Shown here: positions 6,234-27,041 of the stretch, one piece after another
Layout of the letters: every line of letters begins with the position of its first letter
How positions within the stretch are numbered: the stretch's first letter is position 1
NCBI GenBank assembly: GCA_902775485.1
Contig: CACYMJ010000015.1
Span: forward strand, 1 to 42,393
Length of the DNA: 42,393 nt
DNA from: an uncultured Lachnospiraceae bacterium
GTDB lineage: Bacteria > Bacillota > Clostridia > Lachnospirales > Lachnospiraceae
Direction: 5' to 3'
Notes under the pieces: generated by a model
The model's database searches: none
What the model saw: the letters and a program-made list of their open reading frames with translations, nothing else
What the model was told of the DNA's origin: nothing
Position numbers and translations under genes: made by a program

Positions 6234-8213
6234 ATGGAGTTTAAATTACACTCGGATTACAAGCCGACCGGCGATCAGCCGCAGGCTATAAAGGAACTTG
6301 TGAACGGTTTTAGAGAGGGCAACCAGTTTGAAACCCTGCTTGGCGTTACGGGATCCGGCAAGACTTTCACGATGGCGAACGTTATCGCGGCACTCAATAA
6401 ACCTACACTTATCATTTCACATAACAAAACACTTGCGGGCCAGCTGTATTCCGAGATGAAGGAATTCTTCCCGGAGAATGCTGTCGAGTATTTTGTGTCC
6501 TATTATGACTATTATCAGCCGGAGGCCTATATCCCCTCGTCTGATACATATATTGAAAAGGATTCATCGATAAACGATGAGATAGATAAGCTGCGCCTTA
6601 GTGCCACGACATCGCTTTCCGAAAGAAAGGATGTAATAGTTGTGGCATCGGTATCGTGCATATACGGTATCGGATCTCCGGGGGATTATCAGAACATGTG
6701 CGTATCGCTTCGCCCGGGACAGAATAAGGACAGGGATGACGTGGTACGTGAGCTTGTGGATATAAGCTACGAACGCAACCAGATCGATTTTTCACGCGGA
6801 AGGTTCAGGGTTATGGGAGATACCGTTGAGGTGTTCCCCGCATGGGAGAGTGAATATGCCGTAAGGATCGAGTTCTTCGGGGATGAGATAGACAGGATCT
6901 CGGAGTTCGATCCCCTGACCGGAAAGGTACAGTCGGATCTGAAGCATTTTGCCATCTTTCCCGCATCCCATTACGTTATTCCGAGGGATAAGCTTGAAAG
7001 AGCCGTTTCCACGATCGAGGAAGAGCTTGCCGAGCAGGTAAAGTATTTCAAGAGCGAAGATAAGCTCATAGAAGCCCAGCGCATAAATGAGCGGACACGG
7101 TTTGATATAGAGATGCTAAGGGAGACCGGATTCTGCTCGGGGATCGAGAATTATTCGAGACACTTGACAGGCGGCAGACCGGGGGATCCGCCCTATACGC
7201 TCATGGATTATTTTCCCGATGATTACCTGATCATAGTGGACGAATCACACATGACGATCCCACAGCTCGGAGCGATGTTTAACGGAGATCGTGCAAGGAA
7301 GAATTCCCTTGTGGATTACGGTTTCAGACTGCCTTCCGCCAAGGACAACCGTCCCTTGAACTTTGAGGAGTTTGAAGGTAAAATAGACCAGATGATGTTT
7401 GTTTCGGCAACTCCGGGCCCTTACGAAGAGGAGCATGAACTGCTTCGGACCGAACAGATAATCCGTCCGACGGGTCTTCTCGATCCGGAGGTTTCGGTGC
7501 GGCCGACAAAGGGTCAGATCGATGATCTTATCGGTGAGATCAGGAAGGTTGTCGGGGAGGGAAACAAGGTCCTTGTTACGACACTGACCAAAAAGATGGC
7601 CGAGGATCTGACGCTCTATATGAGAGAGGTAGGCGTCAGGGTCAGGTATCTTCATTCCGATATCGACACTTTTGAGAGGGCAAAGATCATCAGGGATATG
7701 CGCCTTGACGTATTTGACGTGCTCGTGGGCATAAACCTTCTGCGTGAGGGACTTGATATTCCCGAAATAGGGCTTGTTGCGATACTCGATGCTGACAAGG
7801 AAGGTTTTCTGCGTTCGCGCACCTCGCTGATCCAGACTATAGGAAGAGCGGCCAGAAACAGCAGCGGGCGTATCATCATGTATGCGGATACGATGACCGA
7901 TTCAATGAAGAGTGCCATCGAGGAGACCGAAAGACGCCGCAATCTGCAGGATGAATACAACAAGGCAAACGGGATCACACCGACTACGATCAAAAAAGCG
8001 GTCCGCGACCTTATCAGCATTCATAAGGAGATCGCGAAAGAGGAAGCAAGGTTTGCAAAGGATCCCGAATCCATGGACGAAAAAGAGCTTAAAAAACTCA
8101 TCGCCGATGTTGAAAAACGCATGCGTCATGCAGCTGCCGAACTTGATTTTGAAACGGCGGCACAGCTGCGCGACAGCATGATAGAACTTAAAAAGCATTT
8201 GGAGGATATATAA
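6234..8213 (+). CDS. uvrB: UvrABC excinuclease subunit B
   Basis: UvrB is the damage-verifying helicase-like subunit of nucleotide excision repair. It receives damaged DNA from UvrA and recruits UvrC. The 659 residues match the family length. Visible motifs are the Walker A GVTGSGKT at 37-44, the beta-hairpin region with [17 protein letters not shown] with D336-E337, helicase motifs near [16 protein letters not shown] and QTIGRAARN, and a C-terminal UVR domain ([11 protein letters not shown]) that contacts UvrC. The start is supported by GCGGAGGA 4 to 11 bp before the ATG. The TAA is directly followed by the TTG of the next gene, so uvrB heads a long cell-envelope operon. uvrA lies 3.8 kb downstream instead of adjacent. 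Confidence 0.97.
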
Positions 8214-22598: not shown

Positions 22599-23630
22599 AT
22601 GAAAAACTTTCTGATCGCATTATTGCCACATCTGACATCGAAGGCCGCGATCACTGCGGCGGTATGCGTTACCGCGACCGCAGCGACGACAGCCACGGTA
22701 ACTACGGTTGTATATAATCACAAGGTTGCCGATTATGAAAAGACCATAGATGCACTGGAGGCCGAAAAGAGCGAAGACGGTAATACGCCGGGTGCACAGT
22801 CTGCATCCGGGGAAGGAGCCCAGTCAACGGCTGTCCGCGTTGTTGACGGCGTGCTTGAAGTGTGGGACGGAACTTCGTGGACCGATTACGGCCCGGTTGA
22901 TGATATCTGTTCTTCGGATCCGTATAATTCGGATTCAAACGACGAAAAGAGACAGGAAGTCGAGAAAAGTGTCGCGGCAAAAAAACTGGACGAGCTCGGT
23001 CTTAAACTGAACGAAGAAGGACAGATCGTAGCGAAGGATGAGAGTGAAAAAACAGGCGGAGAGACTGCCGAAAAGAAAACCGTGATACTTGTCGGTACGA
23101 CGTCAAAGACGGACAGACCGGGCAACACAAAAAACAGCACCACTGATAATAAATCCGGAAGCAAAAATAATACCGCCACAGCGGCTCCGGCTGCAAATCC
23201 GGCCGCGGCGGCAACTCCCGGCCTTACGCGCGAGCAGGTCATGGCCGCCATTCAGGGCACAGGCAGTATAGCATCCATGCCAATGTCCGCGGCATCGACC
23301 ATTACCACAAACACCTGGGTTGCGCAGCCGTCATCCGGTGGAGGCGGCGGCGATTCAGGCGGTGGCGGAGGCGGTGATTCGTACAGCGGAGATTCCGGCG
23401 GAGGCGGATCATCATATTCGGGCGGCGGATCCTCTGATTCCGGAGGTGGAGGCGGCGGTGGCGGCTCCACGGATTCCGGCGGAGGCGGAGGTGACTCCGG
23501 CGGTGGCGATTCCGGCGGTGGTGATTCCGGCGGAGGCGATTCCGGTGGAGATTCAGGCGGAGATTCCGGCGGCGACAGCGGCGGATTCAATGAAGGCGGC
23601 GGCGATGACTGCGGAGACGATGTAAAATAG
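22599..23630 (+). CDS. Membrane-anchored protein with a long Gly/Ser/Asp-repeat C-terminus
   Basis: A 343-residue protein of unknown function. A hydrophobic Ala/Thr-rich anchor spans about residues 16-38. A charged segment (40-60) and a short ordered region with VRVVDGVLEVWDGTSWTDYG (78-97) follow. Next come a Lys/Glu-rich region to about 160 and an Ala/Pro/Asn/Thr linker to about 245. From about 246 to the end there is a near-uninterrupted GGGDSGG-type repeat tract ending in FNEGGGDDCGDD. Such acidic, flexible tails suggest an extracellular spacer or a cation-binding wall tether. A GCAGGAG site 8 bp or so before the ATG supports the start. It is the last gene before a strong terminator. The antisense proline-rich frames across the repeat are not genes. 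Confidence 0.8.
   Translation: MKNFLIALLPHLTSKAAITAAVCVTATAATTATVTTVVYNHKVADYEKTIDALEAEKSEDGNTPGAQSASGEGAQSTAVRVVDGVLEVWDGTSWTDYGPVDDICSSDPYNSDSNDEKRQEVEKSVAAKKLDELGLKLNEEGQIVAKDESEKTGGETAEKKTVILVGTTSKTDRPGNTKNSTTDNKSGSKNNTATAAPAANPAAAATPGLTREQVMAAIQGTGSIASMPMSAASTITTNTWVAQPSSGGGGGDSGGGGGGDSYSGDSGGGGSSYSGGGSSDSGGGGGGGGSTDSGGGGGDSGGGDSGGGDSGGGDSGGDSGGDSGGDSGGFNEGGGDDCGDDVK
23335..23601 (+). repeat. Tandem codon repeat tract encoding (Gly)n-Asp-Ser units
   Basis: An in-frame, degenerate tandem repeat built on units such as GGCGGAGGCGATTCC, with 9-, 12- and 15-bp versions. It encodes GGDS, GGGDS and GGGGGDS blocks. The last third is most regular (GGTGATTCCGGCGG repeated with third-base changes). 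The regularity favours slippage or unequal crossover, so copy number is probably variable between strains. Confidence 0.85.
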
Positions 23631-23850: not shown

Positions 23851-23877
23851 TAAAGTTTTTGCAAAAGAGTCCGATAT
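23851..23877 (+). promoter_or_regulatory. Sigma-28 (FliA/SigD)-type flagellar promoter
   Basis: TAAAGTTT (23851-23858), 11 bp, then TCCGATAT (23870-23877). The known flagellar sigma consensus is TAAAGTTT-N11-GCCGATAA in enterics and TAAA-N15-GCCGATAT in Bacillus. All eight -35 positions match, and the -10 differs from the Bacillus form only at its first base. The expected start is near 23884. It faces the mreB-flgF-flgG operon. Confidence 0.8.
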
Positions 23878-23900
23878 ATATATCAGACATGCAGGGAAGC

Positions 23901-23944
23901 AGTGTAAAACGGATGGATCCGGTCTCGTTTTAGACTGTTTTTTT
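23901..23944 (+). terminator. Terminator-like hairpin in the leader between the two mreB-side promoters
   Basis: AGTGTAAAACG (23901-23911) pairs with CGTTTTAGACT (23926-23936) with one mismatch and a 14-nt loop containing GGATCC, followed by G and seven T's (23938-23944). It lies about 17 nt downstream of the predicted sigma-28 start and upstream of the sigma-A promoter. It could end a short RNA of about 60 nt or act as an attenuator. The stem is A/T-rich, so its strength is uncertain. Confidence 0.65.
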
Positions 23945-23968
23945 GTGCCGTGATACGGACTTTTACAA

Positions 23969-23997
23969 TTGAAAACCGCAGTACATTGAGTTATACT
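23969..23997 (+). promoter_or_regulatory. Sigma-A promoter for mreB
   Basis: TTGAAA (23969-23974), a 17-bp spacer, and TATACT (23992-23997). Each hexamer matches consensus at 5 of 6 positions. The predicted start near 24004 gives a leader of about 57 nt to the mreB ATG. Confidence 0.85.
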
Positions 23998-24060: not shown

Positions 24061-25059
24061 ATGCTTTATTCAGATATAGGTATCGATCTCGGTACTGCAA
24101 GTGTACTTGTATATGTAAGAGGAAGGGGAGTCGTACTCAAAGAGCCGTCGGTAATAGCACTTGATACCGATACGAATTCGATCAGGGCGATCGGAGAAGA
24201 GGCCAGAATGATGCTTGGCCGTACTCCCGGAAACATAGTTGCAATAAGACCTTTAAGACAGGGCGTTATATCGGACTATACGACAACCGAGAAAATGCTC
24301 AAGTACTTCATCCAGAAGGCAGTCGGAAGGAAGAACTTCCGTAAGCCGAGGATCAGTGTATGCGTGCCTTCGGGAGTCACCGAAGTTGAGAAGAAGGCGG
24401 TTGAAGATGCAACATACCAGGCAGGAGCCAGATATGTTGAGATCATAGAAGAACCTATTGCCGCAGCTATAGGTGCCGGAATAGACATCGGAAGACCATG
24501 CGGAAACATGATAGTCGATATAGGCGGCGGAACAACGGATATAGCGGTCATATCACTCGGAGGAGCGGTGGTATCGACATCCATTAAGGTTGCCGGAGAC
24601 GATTTTGACGAAGCGATAGTCCGTTACATGAGAAAGAAACACAATCTTCTGATCGGTGACAATACGGCAGAGGAGATAAAGATAAAGATCGGAACGGCAT
24701 TTAAGCGCCCGGAGATAGAGTATCTTGAAGTTACCGGACGAAACCTCGTTACCGGTCTTCCGAGAACAGTCAAGGTTTCATCGGAGGAGACAGAGGAAGC
24801 ACTGAGGGATACTACCGGACAGGTGGTTGAGGCGATCCATTCGGTACTTGAGAAAACACCCCCTGAACTTGCGGCGGATATCGCTGCAAGAGGCATAGTC
24901 CTTACGGGCGGCGGAAGCCTTCTGAGGGGGCTTGAAGACCTGATCGCATATAAGACAGGTATAAATACAATGACGGCGGAGGATCCGATGACTGCCGTTG
25001 CCATAGGAACAGGTAAATACGTCGAATTCCTTGCGGGATATACGGATAATGTGAACTAG
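24061..25059 (+). CDS. mreB: Rod shape-determining protein MreB/Mbl
   Basis: A 332-residue actin-like ATPase that organises lateral cell wall synthesis beneath the membrane. The phosphate 1 motif is DIGIDLGTASVLVYV and phosphate 2 is MIVDIGGGTTDIAVISLGG. The adenosine motif is GIVLTGGGSLLRGL, with ACVPSG-like VCVPSGVTEVE and IIEEPIAAAIGAGI between. Length and motifs are complete. AAGGGGA precedes the ATG. The order mreB-like, then two rod genes, matches mbl-flhO-flhP of Bacillus, so this copy is closer in context to Mbl. It is the first gene of the operon and would respond to both the sigma-A and sigma-28-like promoters if the leader hairpin is read through. Confidence 0.94.
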   Translation: MLYSDIGIDLGTASVLVYVRGRGVVLKEPSVIALDTDTNSIRAIGEEARMMLGRTPGNIVAIRPLRQGVISDYTTTEKMLKYFIQKAVGRKNFRKPRISVCVPSGVTEVEKKAVEDATYQAGARYVEIIEEPIAAAIGAGIDIGRPCGNMIVDIGGGTTDIAVISLGGAVVSTSIKVAGDDFDEAIVRYMRKKHNLLIGDNTAEEIKIKIGTAFKRPEIEYLEVTGRNLVTGLPRTVKVSSEETEEALRDTTGQVVEAIHSVLEKTPPELAADIAARGIVLTGGGSLLRGLEDLIAYKTGINTMTAEDPMTAVAIGTGKYVEFLAGYTDNVN

Positions 25060-25092: not shown

Positions 25093-25866
25093 ATGGTTAA
25101 GGGATTATACACATCAGCAACCGGAATGATCAACGAGCAGCGAAGGGTCGATGTTCTTGCCAACAATCTGGCGAATTCTTCGACTACGGGCTTTAAGGCA
25201 GAGGGATCCACGTCCGAATCGTTTTATGACGTTTTGGCATACAAGATCAAAGATACGTCGGAACCTTTTGCCGCAAGACGCCTCGGAGCCATGAATCTGG
25301 GTGTCAAGATAGGCGAGACCTACACGGATTATTCCGAAGGATCTTTTGTTACGACAGGTAATGATTATGATATGGCGATCTCCGGAAAGGGATTTTTTGC
25401 CATAGAATTCACATCCAAGGACGGGGAAGTTTCCACGAAGTACACAAGGGCCGGTGATTTTATCGTCAATACAAAGGGCGAACTGGTCAATAAGAACGGG
25501 GATTATGTTCTCGATAAGGGAGGCAATCACATAATCCTTGACCCGATAGTCAAACCGACAATGGGACTTGACGGGACCATATATCAGAACGGAAATGCCG
25601 TAGCCACCATTCAGGTCCAGGATTTTGAAGATTACAATTATCTCAAGAAGTACGGGGAGAACTATTACGATACCGTAGAGGGCGCAACCCCGATAGAGAC
25701 TGATGCCACGATATATAACGGAATGCTTGAGGCATCAAACGTGCAGGCCGTAAAGGAGATGGTCAATCTGATCAACTACCAGCGTGCATATGAAACGAAC
25801 CAGAAGATGATACAGGCCCACAACGAGACGTTGGATGTGGCAGTCAACCAGTTAGGTAAAGTATAA
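25093..25866 (+). CDS. flgF: Flagellar basal-body rod protein, FlgF/FlhO-like
   Basis: A 257-residue axial protein of the flagellar rod/hook family. It has the N-terminal MVKGLYTSATGM and DVLANNLANSSTTGFK block and the C-terminal heptad-rich VKEMVNLINYQRAYETNQKM block, which form the coiled-coil D0 domain. The central ISGKGFFAIE and YTRAGDF motifs are present. It lacks the FlgG-type insertion present in its neighbour, so I assign it as FlgF (FlhO in Bacillus naming). The protein is exported through the flagellar type III system and has no signal peptide. GGGGAG precedes the ATG. It starts 33 bp after mreB. Confidence 0.88.
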   Translation: MVKGLYTSATGMINEQRRVDVLANNLANSSTTGFKAEGSTSESFYDVLAYKIKDTSEPFAARRLGAMNLGVKIGETYTDYSEGSFVTTGNDYDMAISGKGFFAIEFTSKDGEVSTKYTRAGDFIVNTKGELVNKNGDYVLDKGGNHIILDPIVKPTMGLDGTIYQNGNAVATIQVQDFEDYNYLKKYGENYYDTVEGATPIETDATIYNGMLEASNVQAVKEMVNLINYQRAYETNQKMIQAHNETLDVAVNQLGKV

Positions 25867-25877
25867 GGAGGGTATTT

Positions 25878-26696
25878 ATGGTAAGAGCACTTTGGAGCGG
25901 CGCATCGGGAATGATCGCCCAGCAGACTAACGTTGATACCATTGCCAATAACCTGGCAAATGTTAATACCGTCGGATACAAGACTGAGCAGAACGAGTTC
26001 AAATCGCTCCTGTATCAGGAGATCCAGACAAGAACCACGACCGCCAACGGCATTCAGAAGCCCGTGGGAGCACAGGTCGGACTCGGTGTCCGCAATGCCG
26101 CGATCACATCGGAGTTTACGCAGGGTGCGTTCCAGGCATCGGAGAGCAGTACAAGCTTTGCCATAAGCGGCGAGGGATTTTTCGCTCTTAACAATAACGG
26201 GAAGACGGTATATACCCGAAACGGTGATTTCCATTTCGCGATCGGAGCCGGCAACCAGATGTGGCTGACGTCTTCTGACGGATACCCTGTCCTTAACACA
26301 ACGGGACAGCCGATAACCATTCCCGCCGATTATATTTCGAGCAAAGTACAGGTTGATGCAAACGGACAGCTTACATATCCGGATGCAAACAACAACCAGC
26401 AGCCCATTCCCGGAATGCAGATAGGAATGTTCCAGTTCCAGAACGCCAGCGGATTGTTCAAGACCGGCGGAACTATGTATCTGCCGACGGAAGCATCGGG
26501 TCCCGCACTTAATGAAGCAACAAATGCTGCACTTACAAAGTCCGAGATCAGACAGGGATATCTTGAATCATCGAATGTACAGGTTGCGGATGAAATGGTA
26601 AACCTTATCATCGCACAGCGTGCATACGAGCTTAATTCCAAGGTCATCACGACTTCTGATTCTATGCTCCAGGTTGCAAACGATCTTAAGAGGTAA
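25878..26696 (+). CDS. flgG: Flagellar distal rod protein, FlgG/FlhP-like
   Basis: A 272-residue rod protein with MVRALWSGASGM, DTIANNLANVNTVGYK, the characteristic GAQVGLGVRN segment after the D0 start, ISGEGFFALN, YTRNGDF, and the C-terminal VADEMVNLIIAQRAYELNSK. The GxQVGxGV segment is typical of FlgG, the distal rod subunit. AGGAGGG lies 6 bp before the ATG, and the gene follows flgF by 11 bp. No hook gene, export apparatus or P-/L-ring gene is present, as expected when the rest of the flagellar cluster is elsewhere. Confidence 0.92.
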   Translation: MVRALWSGASGMIAQQTNVDTIANNLANVNTVGYKTEQNEFKSLLYQEIQTRTTTANGIQKPVGAQVGLGVRNAAITSEFTQGAFQASESSTSFAISGEGFFALNNNGKTVYTRNGDFHFAIGAGNQMWLTSSDGYPVLNTTGQPITIPADYISSKVQVDANGQLTYPDANNNQQPIPGMQIGMFQFQNASGLFKTGGTMYLPTEASGPALNEATNAALTKSEIRQGYLESSNVQVADEMVNLIIAQRAYELNSKVITTSDSMLQVANDLKR

Positions 26697-26699
26697 TTT

Positions 26700-27041
26700 A
26701 TGGATATAGGAAGCTTATACAGTGATTATCTGACATCAACGGCTACCAAGCAGAGTAATCTCGAAAGGACGCTTAAGGGATCGCAGGATAAAAAGAGCGA
26801 TGACGAGCTCCTTGATGCATGTAAGCAGTTTGAGGCGTATTTCTACGAGCAGGTCTTCAAGAACATGGAGAAGGCTATGGTTCCGTCCGATGATTCGGAT
26901 CCGAACAACACGCTTGTCGATTACTACAAGGAAAACCTCATAGCAAAGTACAGTGAAGCCATCGTTGATCAGAGCGGGGGCGGCAGCAATACTCTGGCAC
27001 AGCAGCTGTATGAACAGATGAAGAGAAACAATTCACAGTAG
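26700..27041 (+). CDS. flgJ: Rod-binding protein (FlgJ N-terminal domain only)
   Basis: A 113-residue protein with the rod-binding core KSDDELLDACKQFEAYFYEQ, FKNMEKAM, and the C-terminal ENLIAKYSEAIVDQSGGG and LAQQLYEQM. In enterics FlgJ carries a further muramidase domain. This short form has only the rod scaffold part, a common arrangement in Firmicutes and alpha-proteobacteria. It starts 3 bp after flgG and follows the rod proteins it would help assemble. Confidence 0.88.
   Translation: MDIGSLYSDYLTSTATKQSNLERTLKGSQDKKSDDELLDACKQFEAYFYEQVFKNMEKAMVPSDDSDPNNTLVDYYKENLIAKYSEAIVDQSGGGSNTLAQQLYEQMKRNNSQ

Follow-up and report, generated by a model that had tools for sequence, protein, structure and literature searches.

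We propose that a non-coding RNA of about 60 nt, predicted to be transcribed from a flagellar sigma-28 promoter just upstream of mreB/mbl, serves as a decoy that titrates CsrA off flagellin mRNA in many motile Lachnospiraceae, a reading to which we give a probability of roughly 0.56. The case is built on computed features, namely the promoter, the RNA structure and its covariation, the GGA sites, the presence of csrA, fliW and fliA, and similar sites in flagellin leaders. The window, by which we mean the whole 42,393-nt stretch of DNA analysed here, belongs to a genome of 2.33 Mb in 61 contigs (83.85% complete), and its nearest MreB relatives carry the label Lachnospiraceae MAGs. The elements and genes of the locus are as follows:

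23851..23877, + strand: sigma-28 (FliA/SigD-type) promoter, with -35 box TAAAGTTT (23851-23858), an 11-nt spacer and -10 box TCCGATAT (23870-23877)
23884..23944, + strand: predicted short RNA of about 60 nt, its 5' end expected about 7 nt past the -10 box and its 3' end at the U run
23891..23900, + strand: GGA site 1, GCAGGGAAGC, of the form GC-ANGGAN-GC, kept in 7/7 close relatives
23900..23944, + strand: intrinsic-terminator-like hairpin, with arms CAGTGTAAAAC (23900-23910) and GTTTTAGACTG (23927-23937) and TTTTTTT (23938-23944)
23910..23921, + strand: GGA site 2, CGG-AUGGAU-CCG, an ANGGAN hexaloop capping the long stem, with covariation in 44 sequences
23969..23997, + strand: sigma-A-like promoter of mbl/mreB, TTGAAA-17-TATACT, a conserved block in the seven-sequence alignment
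24061..25059, + strand: mreB/mbl (PF06723, E 1.4e-141; TIGR00904 above cut-off)
25093..25866, + strand: flgF-like rod gene (TIGR03506 above cut-off, TIGR02490 just below)
25878..26696, + strand: flgG-like rod gene (TIGR03506 above cut-off, TIGR02488 just below)
26700..27041, + strand: FlgJ-type rod-binding protein (PF10135 at cut-off, 25.1 bits)

The original prediction placed a near-consensus flagellar sigma promoter within 23851-23944, followed by an 11-bp stem with one mismatch and seven T's and then by a sigma-A promoter for mreB; all three are present where it put them, the mismatch being G.G. Taken by itself, the promoter pattern was rejected as evidence because it is too common: the 2.33-Mb genome contains 32 copies of TAAA-N15-17-CCGATA and 13 of the reversed pattern, and the pattern alone is therefore not decisive. 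What lifts the window promoter above chance is its conservation. The core positions are intact (10/10) in the window and its three nearest MreB relatives (L032, L033 and L034, with MreB 99% identical), while the spacer has diverged. Within 70 nt upstream of the 53 RNA matches introduced below, at least 8 of the 10 core positions are found in 50, at least 9 in 44 and all 10 in 26, compared with 13% (at least 8) and 1.1% (at least 9) for shuffled upstream stretches. When the window was aligned with L032-L034, obtained by MreB homology, and with L129, L209 and L210, obtained with the RNA model, the conserved blocks of the seven sequences were the sigma-28 boxes, TGCAnGGAnGCAG, TAAAACGGANGGA-CCG and its 3' arm, the sigma-A-like promoter and the ribosome-binding site, the sequence between them having changed. 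Promoter and stem are thus both conserved in relatives, as the original prediction proposed to check. A sigma-28 consensus promoter stands at the 5' end of the RNA, the mark of a sigma-28-dependent sRNA, if transcription starts where the -10 box would place it.

The predicted transcript folds more stably than its shuffles. The energy of 23884-23946 is -26.2 kcal/mol, whereas shuffled versions average -12.15 (z -5.04) and none of 200 did as well. Four or more consecutive T's follow the stem in 42 of the 53 RNA matches, a count that misses runs seen by eye in L070 and L101. Comparative modelling started from A1, an alignment of 40 sequences (the window and 39 loci) chosen with a looser GC-GGA-GC pattern. 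The invariance of GC-GGA-GC is for that reason in part a product of the selection, which had no bearing on the A preceding NGGA or on the exact spacing of the sites. The covariance model R1, built from A1 with the window included, matches window positions 23888-23946 at E 3.2e-10 in the genome, the window being among the model-building sequences, and finds a single copy there, the next best match having E 2.66. Among the loci fetched, which are the best 80 of 571 MreB relatives, R1 matches upstream of mreB on the forward strand in 52, to which the window is added. Of these 52, 39 had built the model and 13 were new to it, including the weak matches in L101 and L074 (E 0.08 and 0.16). The model gave 58 matches in all; the other five (E 0.08 to 0.99) are either on the opposite strand or distant from mreB.

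Both rod genes downstream of mreB/mbl belong to the FlgEFG family, and the gene order mbl-flgF-flgG-flgJ is already known from Roseburia and Eubacterium, whose operon is the same as the one that follows the window element; the part of that report available to us makes no mention of an RNA or a sigma-28 promoter ahead of it (PMC3720852). The RNA tracks this operon. Within the best 80 of 571 MreB relatives, less four with too little upstream sequence, it is found in 52 of 71 loci that have flgFG and in none of the five that lack it (p 0.0023, which ignores relatedness and is optimistic), so that 19 of the 71 flgFG-bearing loci are without it. Upstream of mbl, L083, L093, L104 and L109 have kept a sigma-28-like site and show no match to the RNA model. 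In a family survey of 200 genomes, eight had a strong match (E up to 2.4e-4) and a ninth, G091, an mbl-linked match at E 0.007; 30 loci were examined, 9 of them mbl-linked, including all 8 strong matches, and 21 not. An order survey of 393 genomes returned 14 strong matches (E up to 2.0e-6) in 13 genomes, 12 of them linked to mbl and flgF and two, both in G520, running off contig ends; its 11 weaker matches (E 6.8e-6 to 9.9e-4) had neither mbl nor flgF in the surrounding stretch and were taken as chance. Every strong match with downstream sequence stands before mbl-flgFG. The two G520 copies (L203 and L221) differ in their upstream sequence, a possible duplication of the mbl locus.

Other searches add context. 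A family-wide pattern, GCCGATA-N5-32-GCNNGGANGC, occurs in at least 90 of the 200 genomes; four of its loci were read closely, and it was set aside as evidence. A plasmid collection contained no similar DNA. No Rfam family, CsrB, RsmX and RsmY included, reached its gathering score in the window, and in seven relatives the only matches up to E 5 were to microRNA models, far below gathering scores; a microRNA model match over the L098 RNA (E 2.1) was taken as chance. Upstream in the window, an ORF at 22599-23630 encodes a long Gly/Asp/Ser-rich C-terminus, has no Pfam match and adjoins a GDSL-hydrolase gene.

The core of the RNA is its pair of GGA sites, which resemble CsrA binding sites. CsrA has an optimum GGA spacing and a consensus fuller than GGA. 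The motif GCANGGANGC is present in 53/53 model matches, partly through selection, and ANGGA occurs at least twice in 48 of the 53 (mean 2.55 against 0.37 in shuffles, one occurrence being partly due to selection); two or three are the rule, with a single ANGGA in only five. Site 2 sits in a hexaloop in 44 of the 53, and in each of these 44 the loop starts with A. RNAalifold on A1 yields two hairpins: the first is GC-ANGGAN-GC, and the second closes an NNGGAN hexaloop with a stem of 6 bp. On this alignment the two pairs of the first hairpin are uninformative, since neither ever varies, and five of the six pairs of the second have changes on both sides. For the whole A1 structure, the number of pairs with both-side changes was matched in 99 of 500 shuffles, which is not unusual, and the covariation score in 0 of 500. 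The second hairpin was further assessed on A3, the 44 of 53 matches to which a GGA hexaloop with at least three pairs could be fitted (nine did not fit), a selection that biases the inner three pairs towards structure. Here 84.1% of cells are paired, while shuffles give 72.5% and sliding the partners gives between 29 and 57%; 56 cells have changed on both sides against a shuffled mean of 23.4, and the covariation score was reached by 0 of 500 shuffles. With compensatory change in 9/9 pairs across these 44 sequences, the stem has the covariation whose lack would have counted against the original prediction. The earlier proposal of a SigD-dependent short RNA of about 60 nt is accordingly supported, as a prediction, by conservation and covariation.

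The two GGA motifs are 19-27 nt apart in the 44 fitted matches (22 nt in 25 of them), a distance that a single CsrA dimer might span. Folded one at a time, the sequences do not favour the small first hairpin: in 50 of the 53 matches the minimum-energy structure has the site-1 GGA in a helix and not in a loop, and in the folds inspected its partner is the base of the terminator. In L111 the element carries GAAAC-AAGGAU-GUUUC.

The window's own genome contains the cluster flgK-flgL-fliW-csrA-flaG-fliD-fliS, in which flgL was assigned from its place and from a match to Flagellin_N. It also has a FliA sigma factor above cut-off, a CsrA that aligns with CsrA proteins of solved structure, and eight matches to Flagellin_N, of which flgL is one. 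Just before fliS, at 6960-7010 of L114, lies a stem-loop with GTACAGGATGT, a CsrA-like site seen by eye. In the family survey, csrA is above cut-off in all nine RNA-bearing genomes and in 102 of the 200 overall (p 0.0019, again ignoring relatedness and optimistic). The other 93 csrA-bearing genomes have no strong RNA match; either the element is one lineage's solution or it diverges beyond the model.

Flagellin leaders tie the GGA sites to a candidate target. We inspected the csrA-linked regions of seven relatives and of the window's own genome (L114), six of which had a flagellin match; the csrA-linked stretches of G032 and G091 had none. Some 35 nt ahead of the start, three of the six leaders carry GC-ANGGAN-GC on top of a mismatch-free stem that is 5 bp or longer (GUGGC-AUGGAA-GCCAC, GCCGC-AGGGAA-GCGGC and GCGGC-AAGGAU-GCCGC), followed by CAAGGAGG. 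In the leaders of the own genome and of G177, AAAGGA occurs but does not sit in such a hairpin, and CAAGGAGG is present as well; the sixth, L228, has no ANGGA. On contig C5 of the own genome, leaders L120 and L121 show a sigma-28 -10 box with a weak -35 and then both hairpins, the former preceding flagellin and the latter a small ORF adjoining a flagellin gene. The original prediction saw in the locus a leader tying cell shape to flagellar assembly; the two GGA sites, common to flagellin leaders, point instead to control of flagellin through CsrA.

Related arrangements were noticed elsewhere. The L121 leader (L121/L160, about 1000-1100 and 1500-1590; G000 C5:28858) stands before a small Cys-rich ORF that has no Pfam family over cut-off and lies ahead of the flagellin gene. 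In G018 (contig C54), L224 holds two near-identical sigma-28 leaders, at 6290 and 19086, with GCAGGGAAGC and further GGA motifs, both ahead of a ribosome-binding-site-like stretch. At G000 C3:46422-46560 (L159, about 1480-1600), the window's own genome has a second sigma-28 site; behind it lie AATGGAG, GCATGGATGC and a hairpin that, with its T run, resembles a terminator. This site may possibly yield another CsrA-type short RNA.

Taken together, these features suggest a mechanism whose central steps, transcription, termination, CsrA binding and titration, we infer. RNA polymerase carrying sigma-28 would make the non-coding RNA of about 60 nt and would stop at the intrinsic terminator that the RNA itself encodes. 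With two likely CsrA sites (ANGGAN) spaced by about 22 nt, each RNA molecule could bind a single CsrA dimer. After hook completion, when sigma-28 is released, flagellin mRNA and decoy would be made together; by mimicking the CsrA site of the flagellin leader, the decoy would remove CsrA and allow flagellin translation, so that CsrA would be controlled by an RNA as well as by FliW. The logic would be simple, in that one sigma factor would produce both the flagellin message and the decoy that releases this message. We prefer this trans-acting decoy because the part of the RNA that is conserved is the part that CsrA would recognise, and because the same part is found in flagellin leaders. Several observations weigh against it. 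A purely trans-acting RNA would need no linkage to mbl-flgFG, yet the strong matches are all linked. As the site-1 GGA is paired in the predicted fold, CsrA would have either to bind ahead of terminator closure or to unfold the closed terminator, and the conservation of site 1 may be owed in part to terminator pairing. With mostly two or three ANGGA motifs per molecule, titration needs abundant RNA. Clear T runs are confined to 42 of 53 matches, the RNA is missing from 19 of 71 flgFG-bearing loci, 93 csrA-bearing genomes lack a strong match, and half of the flagellin leaders (3/6) are without the matching hairpin, two with GGA outside a hairpin and one without ANGGA.

The main rival, an attenuator such as the original prediction also raised, acts in cis, and the linkage speaks for it. 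Sigma-28 transcription might normally stop at the hairpin of a CsrA-responsive attenuator, although we regard this as rather unlikely; that CsrA on the nascent 5' GGA site would keep the terminator base open and let transcription read through into mbl-flgFG is a possibility we rate equally low, and it is just as doubtful that the operon in this way senses free CsrA, with the short RNA as by-product or second output. An attenuator nevertheless stays strong because of the mbl-flgFG linkage (9 of the 30 family-survey loci examined, all 8 strong ones among them, and 12 of the 14 strong order-survey matches) and because site 1 pairs into the terminator, in 50 of 53 lowest-energy folds, which makes CsrA binding and termination look mutually exclusive. 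The sigma-28-like site that L083, L093, L104 and L109 keep before mbl in the absence of the RNA speaks for it as well, and the longer bands of MotR in E. coli, explicable in the available text by terminator read-through into motAB-cheAW (PMC10578931), offer a partial precedent for read-through into a flagellar operon. However, mbl has its own conserved sigma-A-like promoter 3' of the hairpin, site 2 is conserved at the tip without obvious effect on termination, GGA hairpins persist in some matches whose T run is weak or missing (11 of 53 were below the T-run count; L103 and L111 are examples), and the linkage can also be explained as plain inheritance of gene order. Decoy and attenuator can both be true. 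Each cell would then have two CsrA antagonists, FliW and the sigma-28 decoy, with CsrA also gating read-through into mbl-flgFG in cis, a combination that we entertain tentatively, at somewhat less than even odds; if it holds, one 60-nt RNA would couple hook completion, flagellin translation and the supply of rod and cell-shape genes.

Two other readings fare worse. Hfq-bound sigma-28 sRNAs exist in E. coli, as the accessible part of PMC10578931 describes, and the window RNA could in the same manner base-pair with some mRNA, its GGA loops serving as antisense seeds. The stem sequences, however, vary freely while the loop GGA and the spacing stay constant, and flagellin leaders contain similar hairpins in the sense direction; the hairpins therefore look like protein sites and not like complementary seeds, and we think base-pairing improbable. 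Least probable is an ordinary terminator beside a chance promoter with incidental GGA sites: the pattern alone is indeed common in the genome, but conservation, covariation, spacing and the flagellar link all contradict such an origin.

The decoy reading places the window RNA among several known systems. Transcription of CsrB/RsmY-type sRNAs is under BarA-UvrY/GacS-GacA control, and in B. subtilis CsrA binds the RNA SR1, which is not known to sequester it. Like CsrB/CsrC and RsmX/Y/Z of Gammaproteobacteria, the window RNA would be a short untranslated RNA with GGA in stem-loops, a type thought to titrate CsrA; it differs from them in having mostly two or three sites and not many, a sigma-28-type promoter, a genome that encodes FliW and no Rfam match. 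GGA motifs, often in hairpin loops, are described as the CsrA signature in the available part of PMC4894983, and two sequences of C. difficile fliC, TGACAAGGATGT and CTAAGGAGGG, are named as predicted CsrA sites in that of PMC8523840. With the B. subtilis hag and C. difficile fliC leaders the window system shares GGA sites before flagellin and a CsrA-FliW-flagellin circuit, and with the C. jejuni flaA mRNA, a CsrA sponge, the titration of CsrA by RNA (parts of PMC4894983 and PMC8523840); in contrast to both, the window RNA is separate, with a terminator and no flagellin gene attached. Dependence on the flagellar sigma factor is common to E. coli MotR and the other sigma-28 sRNAs and, in the accessible text of PMC11187230, to the FliA-dependent CJnc170 of C. 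jejuni. The E. coli RNAs differ in being treated mainly as Hfq-bound base-pairing RNAs, and the word CsrA is absent from the main text of their description in the version available (PMC10578931). Among the open-licence PMC papers that our searches returned, no title or abstract opening describes a CsrA-titrating sRNA in a FliW species or the window RNA, and a 2020 review, in its accessible part, leaves open for any species whether FliW and an sRNA act jointly on CsrA, a question that the window RNA would make directly testable in motile Lachnospiraceae. By likely function, we group the window RNA with the CsrA-sequestering RNAs, outside the CsrB and RsmY families, neither of which Rfam detects here.
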